A stretch of DNA of 64,000 nt from Desulfonatronospira thiodismutans ASO3-1 (lineage in GTDB: Bacteria > Desulfobacterota > Desulfovibrionia > Desulfovibrionales > Desulfonatronovibrionaceae), in assembly GCF_000174435.1 (NCBI RefSeq), contig NZ_ACJN02000002.1, forward strand, positions 372,001 through 436,000. Reading direction: 5' to 3'. Of this stretch, positions 39,554 to 62,773 are shown piece by piece. How positions within the stretch are numbered: position 1 is the stretch's first letter; each line of letters opens with the position of its first letter. A model generated the notes under the pieces. The model made no database searches and had not been told where the DNA came from. It worked only from the letters and a program-made list of their open reading frames with translations. The position numbers and the translations under genes are program-made.

Positions 39554-39653
39554 CTATGTTTTTGGCCCCAAAAAAGGCATTCTAAGGCAATATTTTGGCC
39601 CTGTAGAGGTCATTTAATTAATTAGTTCAATAAGTTGATTAGGTCCGACCCCC
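39554..39653. repeat. Dispersed repeat related to the REPtron end, copy 1
   Basis: Begins CTATGTTTTTGGCCC, passes through TTCTAAGGCAAT and ends TTGATTAGGTCCGACCCC. A close copy is at 61002-61101, and the inverted counterpart lies directly upstream of the tyrosine transposase at 55741-55840. Confidence 0.8.
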
Positions 39654-40083
39654 AACGGTATTCCGGGGCTGGAGCAAAAAACCATCTTATGTTGCCCAGG
39701 TACAGCCTTCAAAAATGACAGCCGGCCCTGGCATGTCAATTTTTACCTGCAAAAAGACCATCTCCGGGGCTTTTTTGGAGGGATACCCTGCATTTCCGGC
39801 CGGGACCAGGTGAGATGCAGTCACGCCGCCGGAAGCGATCATTATTTTGTAACCCTTCAGGGGGGAGGTATGCCAATTTGCCTGTCTGCCAGGCGGGTAA
39901 TGCCCTGTGGGGATCTATATTCTTCAAAACCGTGTGTGCGAAGCACCTGCCTGCCCGCTAAAACTTCGCAGGACAGCTAAGCGCATTTTATTCGGGTGTC
40001 CGCCTGAAGATTTTCCGTGCCTAAGAAGATTTTTTGGGCACGGGCAACTTCGTTGCACACCCCGGTGAAACCCGCTGCGCTGA

Positions 40084-55650: not shown

Positions 55651-56157
55651 GCTTTACCCTATAGCAAAAAAACCGTGCCAACGCGACGGGCTTCTTGAAC
55701 AATGGATTGAAAAGACCTTGCAGGTCGTGTAAAAGGCAGGTTTGGGGTCGGACCTAATCAAGTTATTGAGTTGATTGTATAAATATCCTCTATATAGTCT
55801 AAAATTGGCCTTAGAACGCCCATTTCGATGCTCAAAAACCAGTTGTAAGCAAATATGCCCAGAGCCAACAGATATTTTTTGCCTGATCATGTATGGCATA
55901 TTACCCATAGATGCCATAAAAAGGAATTCTTGCTTAAATTCGCCAAGGACCGTAGCACATGTGTGAGCGCCAACCTGAATATGTCTTAATTATGCCGGTT
56001 TGAAATTGTTTATATCTTATTCTTGTATCTTCTTCTAAAAGAGAAAAGAAAAAATATTTTTTATTTTGTCTTCTTTTCTGTCCTTCTTTTTCTTCCTCTT
56101 CTTCTGTCTTGCCGTTACTGCCTTCTTTGCCTGTCTGAGGCAAAGGAGGCTAAGTTC

Positions 56158-56712
56158 TTGGGCCGTAAACAAAGCCAACAAGTTGTCTGCCTGCACTGTG
56201 GCGAAGCCTTTTGTCCCGACTATCGAAACAGGGGCAAGCAAAAATACTGCTCCAAAGTGCCTTGTCGGGCAGCCAGTAAGAAAGCCAGTCAAAAGGCCTG
56301 GCTGGATAAGCCTGAAAACAGGGATTATTTCCGGGGGCCGGCCCATGTGGACAGGGTCCGGAACTGGAGAAAGCAAAATCCCGGATATGCCAGGCGCAAG
56401 ACCACTGCTCCCAGGAAAACGTTACAAGATCACTGCCTCCAAAAAAGCGTTGAAAATCAACGTGTTGAGGAAACGTTACAAGATCACTGGATCACGCAAC
56501 CATCTGTTATTATAGGACTAATCTCCTCCTTATGCGGGAGTGCGTTACAAGATGACATCGTCAGGGCCGCCCGGCAGATGTACACCCTGGGCTGTGACGT
56601 CATCAACAACCCCAAAGGAGGATTTCATGTACCAAAAGTATCCGATTCATCCCCAGAGACTGCGCAAGGTTCCCAGACAGTTCAGCTGGGTGGACCACAG
56701 GCTGGTTCGTGA
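56158..56712 (+). CDS. IS21 accessory zinc-ribbon protein
   Basis: 184 residues from a TTG at 56158, which has AAAGGAGG 8 bases upstream. Earlier in-frame codons give an implausible poly-Leu/Phe N-terminus. Four cysteines (CLHCGEAFC and YCSKVPC) suggest a zinc ribbon at about residues 10-35, followed by a basic region and a repeated short motif (TLQDH three times). It overlaps the next gene by 86 bases. Similar passenger genes accompany some IS21 elements; their role is unknown. It may help target choice or regulate transposition. Confidence 0.72.
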   Translation: MGRKQSQQVVCLHCGEAFCPDYRNRGKQKYCSKVPCRAASKKASQKAWLDKPENRDYFRGPAHVDRVRNWRKQNPGYARRKTTAPRKTLQDHCLQKSVENQRVEETLQDHWITQPSVIIGLISSLCGSALQDDIVRAARQMYTLGCDVINNPKGGFHVPKVSDSSPETAQGSQTVQLGGPQAGS

Positions 56713-57016
56713 CGGTCATATTGAGAGGTTAAGCCATGCTGCAGCAGCCTTGTACCTGTTCCTGGTGACCGTGGGCGATCAGCAGGGGCTTAGCTACTAC
56801 TCCGACCCCATTGTCATGCAGCGCCTGGGCATGGATGAAGTCACTTTGCAGCAGGCGCGCTTCAATCTGATCCAGGCTGACCTCATTGCCTGGAAGAAAC
56901 CGCTTTATCAGGTTCTATCCATCCAGGTCCCACCCGTAAATCAGGCCAGGACAGCACAGGCCGGGCCTGTGCACTTCTCAGACGTTCTCAAAAAACTTGC
57001 CGGGGGTAACACATGA
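56627..57016 (+). CDS. IS21 accessory winged-helix-like protein
   Basis: 129 residues from the ATG at 56627, four bases after AGGAGG. A stretch RLSHAAAALYLFLVTVGDQQG, then SDPIVMQRLGMDEVTLQQAR and LIQADLIAWKKPLYQVLSI, has the pattern of replication-initiator or DnaD-like winged helices. The stop overlaps the istA start (ATGA), so translation is coupled. I have seen this type of protein beside IS21 istA genes but know no function for it. Confidence 0.82.
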   Translation: MYQKYPIHPQRLRKVPRQFSWVDHRLVRDGHIERLSHAAAALYLFLVTVGDQQGLSYYSDPIVMQRLGMDEVTLQQARFNLIQADLIAWKKPLYQVLSIQVPPVNQARTAQAGPVHFSDVLKKLAGGNT

Positions 57017-58488
57017 TTGATTATGAGCTTTATGCCAGAATAAAGCACTACCATGAACAAAAAGGACTTACCCCGGCCCAGATAGCAAAAGAACTGCAGC
57101 TGGATCCGCGTACAGTGGGCAAATGGCTCGAAGCAAAGCAGTTTCATCAAAGAAAGTCAGTAACAAGACCAAGCAAGCTTGATCCCTTCAAGGATACCAT
57201 CGTCAGGATGCTGGAGGAGCACCCCTACACAGCCGTCCAGGTTTTGCGCAGCATCAAGGAGCAGGGCTATACAGGAGGCTCCTCCATTCTCAAGGAATAC
57301 ATAAGCAAAGTCAGGCCCAAAAGGTCCAGGGCCTTTTTAAGTCTGGCCTTTGCCCCAGGAGAGTGCGCCCAGGTTGACTGGGGAAATCACGGCTCCATCC
57401 AGGTGGGAGACAGCAGGCGCAATCTCAGCTTCTTTGTCATGGTCCTTTGCTACAGCAGGATGATGTATCTTGAGTTCACTGTCTCCCAAAGCATGGAGCA
57501 CTTCCTGGCCTGTCATCAAAACGCCTTTGACGCATTCGGGGCGGTCCCCAGAAAAATCATGGTGGACAACCTGAAATGTGCAGTGCTCAAGCACCCCTAT
57601 GGCCAAAAACCGGTTCTAAATCCCAAATATCTTGACTTTGCAAAGCACTGGGGTTTTGAGATCAGTGCCTGCGGAGTCAGAAAGCCCCATGAAAAAGGCC
57701 GGGTGGAGAATGCCATAGGTTATGTCAAAAAGAACTTGCTGGCCGGCCTTGAACTGCCGGATTACCGGGCCATCAACCATTACGCCCGCCACTGGTGCAG
57801 GGCAACAGCCAATGTGCGTATCCATGCCCAGACCGGCAAGAAGCCGGTGGACATGCTTGAAGAAGAAAGAGAGCACCTTTTGCCCCTGCCTGTTAACACC
57901 TATGATATCGGAGTCTTAACCCAGGTCCGGGCCTCGTCGCAGTTCCGGATCACCCTGGAGTCCAACCGCTATTCCGTGCCAGCCAGGTACGCAGGCAAAC
58001 GCCTGACCTTGAAGACTTATCCTGATCGCTTATGCATCTATGACGGCAACAATCTTGTGGCCAGGCATGTCCGCAGCTTTGATAAAAAAAGGGACATTGA
58101 AGACCCCGATCATGTCCAGGAGTTTATTGTCCAGCGCCGGGCAGCCAGGGATCAGCAATTGTTTTCCCGGTTCCTGGCTTTGTCCCCAAGAGCAAAGGAT
58201 TACTTTTTTGAGTTGGAGAAAAAGCACTTGAACATCAAACACCATGTCCAGAAGATTGTAGCCTTAAGCGAAATCTATGGCTCTGAAGCCGTGTCCAGGG
58301 CCATGGACGACGCATTCACCTACAGTGCCTTCTCCTGTGAGTATGTAGCCAACATCCTGGAGCAAAGAGCCAGGACCATGCCCGCACCAGGAGCCCTGCA
58401 TCTGACCAGGCGAGAGGATCTGCTGGATATTGAAGTCAAAGACCCTGATCTAAGCATTTACGACAAACCCAAGGAGAAAAACCCATGA
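57013..58488 (+). CDS. istA: IS21 transposase IstA
   Basis: 491 residues. An N-terminal helix-turn-helix (GLTPAQIAKELQLDPRTVGKW) is followed by the integrase-type DDE core, with Asp in CAQVDWGNHG, Asp in MVDNLKCAV and Glu in KGRVENAIGYV. A C-terminal beta-barrel (RFRITLESNRYSVPARYAGK-like region) and helical tail follow. Length and motifs are complete. It overlaps istB by 4 bases (ATGA). Confidence 0.96.
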   Translation: MIDYELYARIKHYHEQKGLTPAQIAKELQLDPRTVGKWLEAKQFHQRKSVTRPSKLDPFKDTIVRMLEEHPYTAVQVLRSIKEQGYTGGSSILKEYISKVRPKRSRAFLSLAFAPGECAQVDWGNHGSIQVGDSRRNLSFFVMVLCYSRMMYLEFTVSQSMEHFLACHQNAFDAFGAVPRKIMVDNLKCAVLKHPYGQKPVLNPKYLDFAKHWGFEISACGVRKPHEKGRVENAIGYVKKNLLAGLELPDYRAINHYARHWCRATANVRIHAQTGKKPVDMLEEEREHLLPLPVNTYDIGVLTQVRASSQFRITLESNRYSVPARYAGKRLTLKTYPDRLCIYDGNNLVARHVRSFDKKRDIEDPDHVQEFIVQRRAARDQQLFSRFLALSPRAKDYFFELEKKHLNIKHHVQKIVALSEIYGSEAVSRAMDDAFTYSAFSCEYVANILEQRARTMPAPGALHLTRREDLLDIEVKDPDLSIYDKPKEKNP

Positions 58489-59246
58489 CCAACAAACACC
58501 AAAGTGAGGTGCACAGGCTGGAAGAAAATCTCCAGCTGCTCAAGCTAACCTGTATAAAAGAGCAGTACAGGCCGGCGGCTGACAAGGCTGCCAGGCAGAA
58601 CTGGGATCATCTGGGCTATCTGGCCAGGCTGGTCCAGGCAGAAGCAGATGCCAGGCATGATCGCTCCATCCAACGCCGTATCAGGATGGCCCGTTTCCCA
58701 GGCATAAAAACCATGGAGAACTTCGACTGGACATGGCCGACCAAGATCAACCGCCCGGCCATCCAAAACCTCTTTCGCCTTGGATTTATGAAGGACAAGG
58801 CCAACATAATAATCCTCGGAGGAGTAGGCCTGGGCAAATCACACATAGCCACAGCCCTGGGTTACAGTGCATGCCTGGAAAAGCATTCGGTGCTGTTTGC
58901 CACCACCATAGATGTCATAAACACCCTCTCGGCCGCACAGGCTGCACACAAGCTCAAAACAGAGCTCAAGAAATATGTAAGTCCTGAACTGCTCATTCTG
59001 GATGAGCTTGGCTACCTGCCCATAGACAAGCAAGGTGCAGACCTGCTCTTCCAGGTCATAAGCCAGCGCTACGAACAAAAATCAACCATCCTGACCACCA
59101 ACAGAGCCTTCAAGAAATGGCCCGAGGTGTTCAACAACGACAGCACCCTGACCTCAGCCATGTTGGACAGACTTCTGCACCATGCCGAAACTATCCTCAT
59201 TGAAGGCAAAAGCTATCGGATGAAAGACCAGGTTCAGGAACAATAG
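58485..59246 (+). CDS. istB: IS21 helper ATPase IstB
   Basis: 253 residues of the DnaC/IstB AAA+ family. Walker A is GGVGLGKSHIATALG, Walker B is LLILDELGYLP, and sensor I is in ILTTNRAF. IstB assembles on DNA and activates IstA at the target. Complete, and directly follows istA with an ATGA overlap. Confidence 0.97.
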   Translation: MTNKHQSEVHRLEENLQLLKLTCIKEQYRPAADKAARQNWDHLGYLARLVQAEADARHDRSIQRRIRMARFPGIKTMENFDWTWPTKINRPAIQNLFRLGFMKDKANIIILGGVGLGKSHIATALGYSACLEKHSVLFATTIDVINTLSAAQAAHKLKTELKKYVSPELLILDELGYLPIDKQGADLLFQVISQRYEQKSTILTTNRAFKKWPEVFNNDSTLTSAMLDRLLHHAETILIEGKSYRMKDQVQEQ

Positions 59247-60280
59247 CTCCGCATAGGCAACCGCCGGCATCAACCTTTATGTCTGGAGCTGGCGGTTGCT
59301 CCAAAACAACATTTTTAAACCGGCGTTTTATGGCATCTTCAAGCCGGCGCTAACACACATGGGTAAAATGGTTGTTTGAAGCCAAAAAAAGGTATGGGCT
59401 ACAGGTATTGAACTATACGGTTACCTCGAATCATATTCACTTGCTGGTACACGGACATGAAGACAAAGATGCTATACCCAGATCGCTACAATTGATAGCT
59501 GGCAGGACAGGCCAGGAATACAATCAAAGGAAGAAGCGTAAGGGGGCTTTCTGGGAAGACAGGTATCACGCTACAGCAGTGGATGTTGATGAACACCTTG
59601 TTCGATGTCTGGTCTATATAGACTTGAATATGGTCAGGTCCAGAGTGGTTAAGCATCCCAATGAGTGGAGTCACGGGGGATACCCTGAAATAGTCGAGCC
59701 ACAACAAAGATACCGGATTATCAATAGGGATCTCTTGCAAAAACTTCTGGATATCGATGATGGTTTATCAGGGATTTACTCTGGGTGGGTTCAGACAGCA
59801 TTGGATGAGAGAACTCCAAGGCAAGCCGACTGGACTGAAGGTGTTGCAGTGGGCTGCAAAGATTTTGTCGAAAAGGTCAAGGAAATGCTTTGCGGCAGAG
59901 CTTGCGGCCGCAGGGTCCATGAAGTAGGCAAGTCAGGGATGTACGCACTGAAAGAACCTGTATCGGCTTACAATGATGTTTTTGAGGGTAAAATGGGGCT
60001 TCTAAGCTCCGAAAATAGGCTATTTTGGGATATTTATCCTGATATTTAAGGATGATGGTTAGGTCCGACCCCAAAGAACGATCGAAGTTATCAAAGAACT
60101 CTGCCGGGGGCCGGGCATAACCGAATTCATCCGCCGCGCAGTTCGCGCAACGAATGATCGAGCGCTCAAAGTAACTCGAAAAGTATTTTGTTCTCGCGTC
60201 CATATCGCTTCTCGTGGCGCTCTAACGACAAGCTAACCAGCCGGCCTTGCCGGTCTGGTTGAGCGCCTGGTCCGCTGTGG

Positions 60281-60915: not shown

Positions 60916-61001
60916 TAATTTAAAGTACACATATATGTTAACATTGTCAAGGAGATTTATTGTTTTGTAGGCAGCGAACGAAAAGCTCACTCTTACATCT
61001 A

Positions 61002-61101
61002 TGTTTTTGGCCCAAAAAAAGGCATCCTAAGGCAATTTTTAAGGCCTTATAGAGGACTTTTACTCAATTAGTTCAATGACTTGGTTAGGTCCGACCCCCA
61101 T
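61002..61101. repeat. Dispersed repeat related to the REPtron end, copy 2
   Basis: CTATGTTTTTGGCCC, CATCCTAAGGCAATTTT, TATAGAGG and TTGGTTAGGTCCGACCCC in the same order as at 39554. The 240 bases that follow, up to the deacetylase gene, hold a GGGGACTGTCCC core near 61221 and the hairpin CCCCACACATGTGGGG near 61301, but no gene. Confidence 0.8.
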
Positions 61102-62132: not shown

Positions 62133-62773
62133 ATTCCATGTCCTGATGTGACTGCAAAAATTCATTTTTGCAGTCACAGATGTCAGAGCTCAGACGTCAG
62201 AGGTCCCCAGTGAAATCCCCCAGTTAAACAAAAGAGGGTTTAACCGGGTAAACTTCGGGAACTCCAAGGAGTTATTTCACGGGGCAGGCAGTAAAAACAA
62301 AGATTTATATCACGCGAAGACGCGTGATTGATTTCTGAATTATTGATTTCTCGACTTTTTGCAGATTCATCTGTCCTGAGAAGATTTAACTGCAAACAGT
62401 CAAGGCGGGGACTTGAACTAAATATAGCCTGACCAGACCAGTTCTAATTGTCAAGCGGTTTGTTGCCATGAGGTTCTTCACATTATGTTTGTTCGGGTCG
62501 GACCGAGCAAATATATTATAAATATATAAAATGATCTCGTTTTTTGCTTGCTTTTAAGTCTTATAACCGCCATATTTATGTGGTAAAAGCAGTGCTAAAC
62601 TTCTATTCTCGAGGCGACAACTATTTTGACACATGGGACCCGCTTTGGATGGTTTAAATGAAATAATTGGTGGTTAACCAGTCACTGTTGCGGACTCGCT
62701 TCACTCGCCGCAAAGCTCCAACGTTCGGCTATAAAGGATTGACTTAGCATGAATACCGTGTTACCGTGATTTC
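62133..62773. other. Intergenic region with nested palindromes
   Basis: No gene is seen. CCCCAGTGAAAT pairs with ATTTCACGGGG (62210-62284) around CCAGTTAAAC/GTTTAACCGG. A second hairpin, ATCACGCGAAGACGCGTGAT, is near 62311. GGGTCGGACC near 62498 is a fragment of the REPtron end. The right part should contain the promoter of the HigBA pair. Confidence 0.5.

Follow-up and report, generated by a model that had tools for sequence, protein, structure and literature searches.

An IS21-split Y1 tyrosine transposase gene of Desulfonatronospira thiodismutans ASO3-1 and its place in a TIRtron-like family

RAYT-like genes flanked by terminal inverted repeats were described as TIRtrons by Di Nocera et al. 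2013 (PMC3733652), with the motif GGGGWSAS present in the repeats of several of the published elements, not all. Most TIRtrons fall in subclass 2.1 of Quentin et al. 2018 (PMC6006769), which averages 1.9 copies at 49% identity and is characterised by a C-terminal HTH domain, and the tyrosine motif of class 2 TnpA-REP proteins was given there as Y---NP. Published surveys contain no evidence of mobility for the TIRtron class, and RAYTs are regarded as domesticated, single-copy and vertically inherited genes (PMC8049555). In the related REPtrons (RAYT or TnpA-REP; Nunvar et al. 2010, PMC2817692) the gene lies inside inverted repeats that bear a 5' GT[AG]G tag and form stable hairpins, and in the IS200/IS605 family (IS608, ISDra2) a short Y1 HUH transposase belongs to a mobile multi-copy unit with subterminal hairpins on the same strand. 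The family described below is of moderate interest because its class has been described as non-mobile, and it bears on where the step from mobile insertion sequence to domesticated RAYT lies.

The sequence analysed (the window) was 64,000 nucleotides of contig NZ_ACJN02000002.1, positions 372,001 to 436,000; window positions are given by number alone and other contigs of the genome as C1, C2 and so on. The genome comprises 4.1 Mb in five contigs, and all genome-wide counts derive from searches. The following features were annotated in the window.

55741-60075, whole feature: Y1 tyrosine transposase gene split by IS21
55741-55757, + strand: left terminal inverted repeat TTTGGGGTCGGACCTAA, 17/17 identity with the right end
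55855-55961, + strand: 5' part of the tyrosine transposase gene (tnpA), 35 codons and the start of codon 36, CACATG included
55956-55961, no strand: CACATG, left copy of the IS21 target duplication
55962-59355, + strand: IS21-family insertion sequence, 3394 bp, beginning TGTGAGCGCC and ending GGCGCTAACA
57013-58488, + strand: istA transposase (rve, Mu-transpos_C_2, transpos_IS21; NCBIfam NF033546, 291.5 bits)
58485-59246, + strand: istB helper ATPase (PF01695, 244 bits; NCBIfam NF038214, 269 bits)
59356-59361, no strand: CACATG, right copy of the IS21 target duplication
59362-60049, + strand: 3' part of the tyrosine transposase gene, with HUH motif (NHIH) and catalytic-tyrosine motif YIDLNM
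60059-60075, - strand: right terminal inverted repeat, 17/17 identity with the left end
39558-39655, - strand: lone left end from an older related element, transposase-free (blastn against the element, 75% over 99 bp)
60992-61098, - strand: another solitary left end, lying about 1 kb to the right of the split element (blastn hit, 75% over 108 bp)

An earlier note on this DNA had placed the first 35 tnpA codons on the far side of IS21 and had proposed that deletion of IS21 and one CACATG would restore a single frame. The empty site had been deduced correctly: the joined frame encodes 264 aa from the ATG at 55855 to a TAA ending at 60049, 35 whole codons precede the junction, and intact 264-aa homologues span the junction gap-free at 88-89% identity, the same frame being intact in two further copies in the genome (B and G, below). 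Compared with copy G, the joined frame gave dN 0.057 and dS 0.49 (dN/dS about 0.12), values between copies of the family ranged from 0.10 to 0.12, and the joined frame shows purifying selection when set against its intact paralogues. A chance origin of the frame was ruled out because of these paralogues and the dN/dS values, and the data support a RAYT-related Y1 tyrosine transposase gene that was split when IS21 inserted in a simple event.

The IS21 insertion as such is ordinary. Both istA and istB, TG...CA ends and a short target duplication are present, and the element resembles known IS21 members in its istA/istB pair, in being a 3.4-kb element and in a target duplication of about 5-7 bp, departing only in its length and in extra ORFs upstream of istA. 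Genome-wide, eight full-length or near-full-length copies were checked (98.9-100% identity). Several of the other near-identical copies are bordered by direct repeats roughly 5-7 bp long (GTCTGCA, CTTCT, CATGC, GAGGAA), so the boundaries and the CACATG repeat at the present locus are genuine and the insertion is simple and recent. The window copy is long (3.4 kb), with additional sequence ahead of istA that includes a 158-aa ORF (56540-57016) matching no Pfam family.

Seven full-length copies of the element were found in the genome, two of them with intact frames.

Copy A, C1:1057576-1058592, 82-bp hairpin insertion
Copy B, C2:19443-20377, intact frame, 264 aa
Copy C, the window copy, IS21-split
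Copy D, C2:698688-699704, 82-bp hairpin insertion
Copy E, C2:756448-757464, 82-bp hairpin insertion
Copy F, C2:768561-769664, 82-bp hairpin insertion
Copy G, C5:22802-23736, intact frame, 264 aa

Additional fragments and solitary left ends also occur in the genome, two of the latter in the window. The one at 39558-39655 matches C1:848570 at 91% over 128 bp, and an extra short sequence, CTTGAGAGTTCAAAGTTCCTGGTTCTTCGTT, is common to these two and to a third (L197). Since CTTGAGAGTTCAAAGTTCCTGGTTCTTCGTT follows a variable length of element, the solitary ends appear to have a fixed start and a variable end.

We consider it very probable that a TIRtron-type transposon, 935 bp long and with a single gene, is present here as a full-length copy that IS21 later split, and that the family moves as a unit. 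The right flanks of the seven copies are all unrelated to one another and six different left flanks were found, 1237 bp of left flank being common to A and E, which are therefore not fully independent insertions. At all sites other than this shared flank, similarity ends at the repeats or within a few bases of them. Recognisable genes are broken by copies D, E and F, as read from translations and not from a database: the left flank of D is a cytochrome c-like gene with an intact counterpart in a relative from another genus (G008), the right flank of E and the left flank of F belong to one of the genes of a tandem family, and the right flank of F is an IS630-type transposase gene. The tandem family lies at C2:752000-770000, an array of paired genes for repeated secreted-looking proteins into which both E and F are inserted. 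In D, E and F the left and right flanks derive from different genes, and so deletion or recombination next to the element has taken place. The flanks of the seven copies and of four derivatives were searched across 18 genomes; all matches were one-sided, and none gave an exact pre-insertion site in which the two flanks meet.

That segmental duplication or homologous recombination instead multiplied an old, immobile gene is improbable. The left flank shared by A and E would fit such a history, as would a patchwork of substitutions, common to A and F in one stretch of the element and to D, E and C in another, which shows conversion among copies; because of this patchwork, the 82-bp insertion could have spread without transposition, and gene conversion may account for part of its sharing. 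Against this stand the otherwise unrelated flanks with similarity ending at or near the repeats, the retention of both ends by derivatives of differing internal structure, and the occurrence of close relatives in different genera and beyond. Taken together, these observations are good sequence evidence that the TIRtron transposes as a whole unit.

The same note had read the locus as a complete REPtron with perfect 17-bp inverted REP ends, a host REP system switched off by IS21, and had proposed a search for a second intact gene and a count of the repeats. In support of that reading, the gene does sit between inverted repeats and the protein is RAYT-like. The joined protein matched PF01797 (39.2 bits) and NCBIfam REP_Tyr_transpos (E 1e-17), although the score of 64 for the latter lies below its cut-off of 80. 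Sequence searches against the structural relatives reached only ISDra2 (E 0.19), and the fold was compared for that reason; the predicted model had E. coli RAYT 4er8 as its top PDB match (E 6e-8, TM 0.73 on target), followed by IS608 and ISDra2, the last 20 residues being a low-confidence part of the model. In the eight aligned relatives N-H-x-H and Y121 are invariant, as are N and M of the tyrosine motif (YIDLNM or YIDMNM). No HTH Pfam match at E<=0.001 and no DnaA_C hit were found at the C-terminus, one member giving Phage_CI_repr at 0.04.

The inverted identity of the ends stood (17/17, with a mismatch at the following base), but the REP designation did not. The ends lack the GT[AG]G tag (GTAG or GTGG) and fold as DNA no better than shuffled sequences (z -1.7 to 0.0), and they are for these reasons not considered REPs; a degenerate tag was also sought, and that version of the REP reading was dropped when none of the collected left and right ends proved to have one. 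They carry instead the GGGGTC repeat of TIRtrons with a palindromic core, GGTCNGACC, and the form GGGGTC[N]GACC is kept in more distant relatives (50-67% protein identity). The 14-bp core occurs four times in the window (0.06 expected) and exactly 20 times in the 4.1 Mb, mostly within elements (0 in the reversed control), so that no REP-like population of ends is seen; in the relatives G008 and G004 the exact counts were 30 (0 in the reversed control) and 7. Counts over the family of the pattern GGGGTCNGACCNNG, which does not cover the TAA form, were no better than control. As for a single resident system that has been switched off, the search for a second intact gene returned B and G, which already refute the statement as worded, and with the four further full-length copies the locus belongs to a mobile repeat family. 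A domesticated, single-copy REPtron silenced by IS21 is therefore very unlikely.

As a TIRtron-type transposon, the element shares with described TIRtrons a RAYT-like Y1 transposase with HUH motif and catalytic tyrosine, flanking inverted repeats of GGGG-W-S type that are not REPs, a C-terminal extension, delta-proteobacterial hosts of relatives and a family of solitary repeats. It differs in forming a near-identical multi-copy family with MITEs, in place of the 1.9 copies at 49% identity of subclass 2.1, in a C-terminus giving no HTH or DnaA_C hit, and in a core, GGGGTCGG, that agrees with GGGGWSAS at seven of eight positions (G, not A, at position 7). Its motif is YIxxNM rather than Y---NP, and because of this N-M it is placed on a divergent branch and not as a typical class 2 member. 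With REPtrons it shares the HUH-Y1 fold, the nearest structure and the position of the gene inside inverted repeats, but it is present as several near-identical whole-unit copies with intact paralogues. From IS200/IS605 it is set apart by having an inverted repeat at each end where that family has subterminal hairpins on the same strand, by a longer protein (264 aa) with an extra C-terminal domain, by Y---NM instead of Y---Q and by the absence of TnpB. The Y1 HUH transposase and the mobile multi-copy unit are common to both, and a cut site in a T-rich tetranucleotide beyond the recognised end may be a further shared trait.

Copies A, D, E and F carry an identical 82-bp insertion at about element position 291, directly before the HIH codons of the HUH motif. 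It is a hairpin whose loop holds a second hairpin, and it stops the N-terminal frame at once with an in-frame TAA and shifts the frame downstream. A 47-bp hairpin version lies at the same base in relatives from Desulfobulbus alkaliphilus and a Halobacteroidaceae MAG, and because this position recurs there, with 47-bp and 82-bp versions, the hairpin-bearing form has persisted. The idea that the four copies remain functional, the hairpin being skipped in translation or removed from the RNA, draws on that recurrent position and on the stop-free downstream part of D and E, but it is scarcely credible given the TAA and net frameshift, the additional TAG in A and F, and the abundance of similar palindromes in the genome, as expected of ordinary repeats.

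Insertions of palindromes are seen repeatedly at the same places in the element, at about positions 160, 291 and 892. Internally deleted derivatives of differing internal structure, with both ends retained, are found in G008, and a 229-bp MITE was found in another relative (G010), an assembly only 77% complete in which no transposase match was detected. Because the junction of this MITE, which fuses element positions 3-160 to 893-934, runs through a palindrome, the few junctions available suggest that internal deletions arise by recombination between two inserted hairpins.

The close relatives extend beyond the genus. The D. alkaliphilus DSM 24258 relative is 93% identical over 59 residues, and the Halobacteroidaceae copy matches one from G008 at 97.3% identity over 291 bp, the 4.5-kb MAG contig possibly being mis-binned. 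In a class-wide search, relatives at E<=1e-30 were present in 15 of 348 genomes, with more than three matches only in the source genome and G008; at the same threshold, PLSDB contained no plasmid-borne relatives.

The following mechanism is proposed for the Y1 HUH transposase gene lying between inverted terminal repeats TTTGGGGTCGGACC...GGTCCGACCCCAAA. The GGGGTC-NGACC ends would be recognised by the transposase as single-stranded DNA, and the tyrosine would cut at a T-rich tetranucleotide (TTAT, TTAC, GTTT, CTTT) lying a few bases beyond the ends, by a process akin to that of IS200/IS605. The bases just outside left ends are mostly T-rich (TTAT, TTAC, GTTT, ATTT) and those outside right ends are CTTT, GTTT or sometimes GATC; because several copies from two different genomes have GGAAGATTT outside the left repeat and AAAG outside the right one, the moved unit is probably slightly longer than the repeat. 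The insertion of IS21, which split the transposon and duplicated CACATG, came later. Intact copies, two of them remaining in this genome, most likely provide transposase in trans, and the sequences suggest that IS21-split and hairpin-split dead copies are mobilised in this way, along with internally deleted MITE derivatives. By a modest margin we favour a joint reading in which the TIRtron is an active, IS-like transposon that moves as a unit, mobilises MITEs and copies with a dead transposase gene in trans, and has passed between distant bacterial lineages, while REP-like hairpins inserted at fixed points of the gene kill copies and seed the deletions that form MITEs. The intact, dead, solo-end and MITE forms constitute a natural system for asking whether a Y1 transposase is able to mobilise an element whose ends are inverted.

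Other repeats were observed in the course of the analysis. A palindrome, CCCGGTGAAATCAGCTGCGCTGTCCTTCGGAATTTCACAGGG, has at least about 15 near-identical copies on C1, C2 and C3 (e.g. L151-L171), often beside ACAGGATTGACAGGATAAGC, and looks like a separate REP-like family. In the window, a palindrome broadly similar in type, also nested (CCCAGTGAAAT...ATTTCACGGGG, enclosing an inner hairpin), lies at 62206-62284. A second family of Y1 transposases, of about 305-343 aa, is present in many copies, some in tandem (C3:275906-287443, C2:818-1201, C2:26324-30322 and others), and is similar to the multi-copy subclass 2.3 described by Quentin et al.
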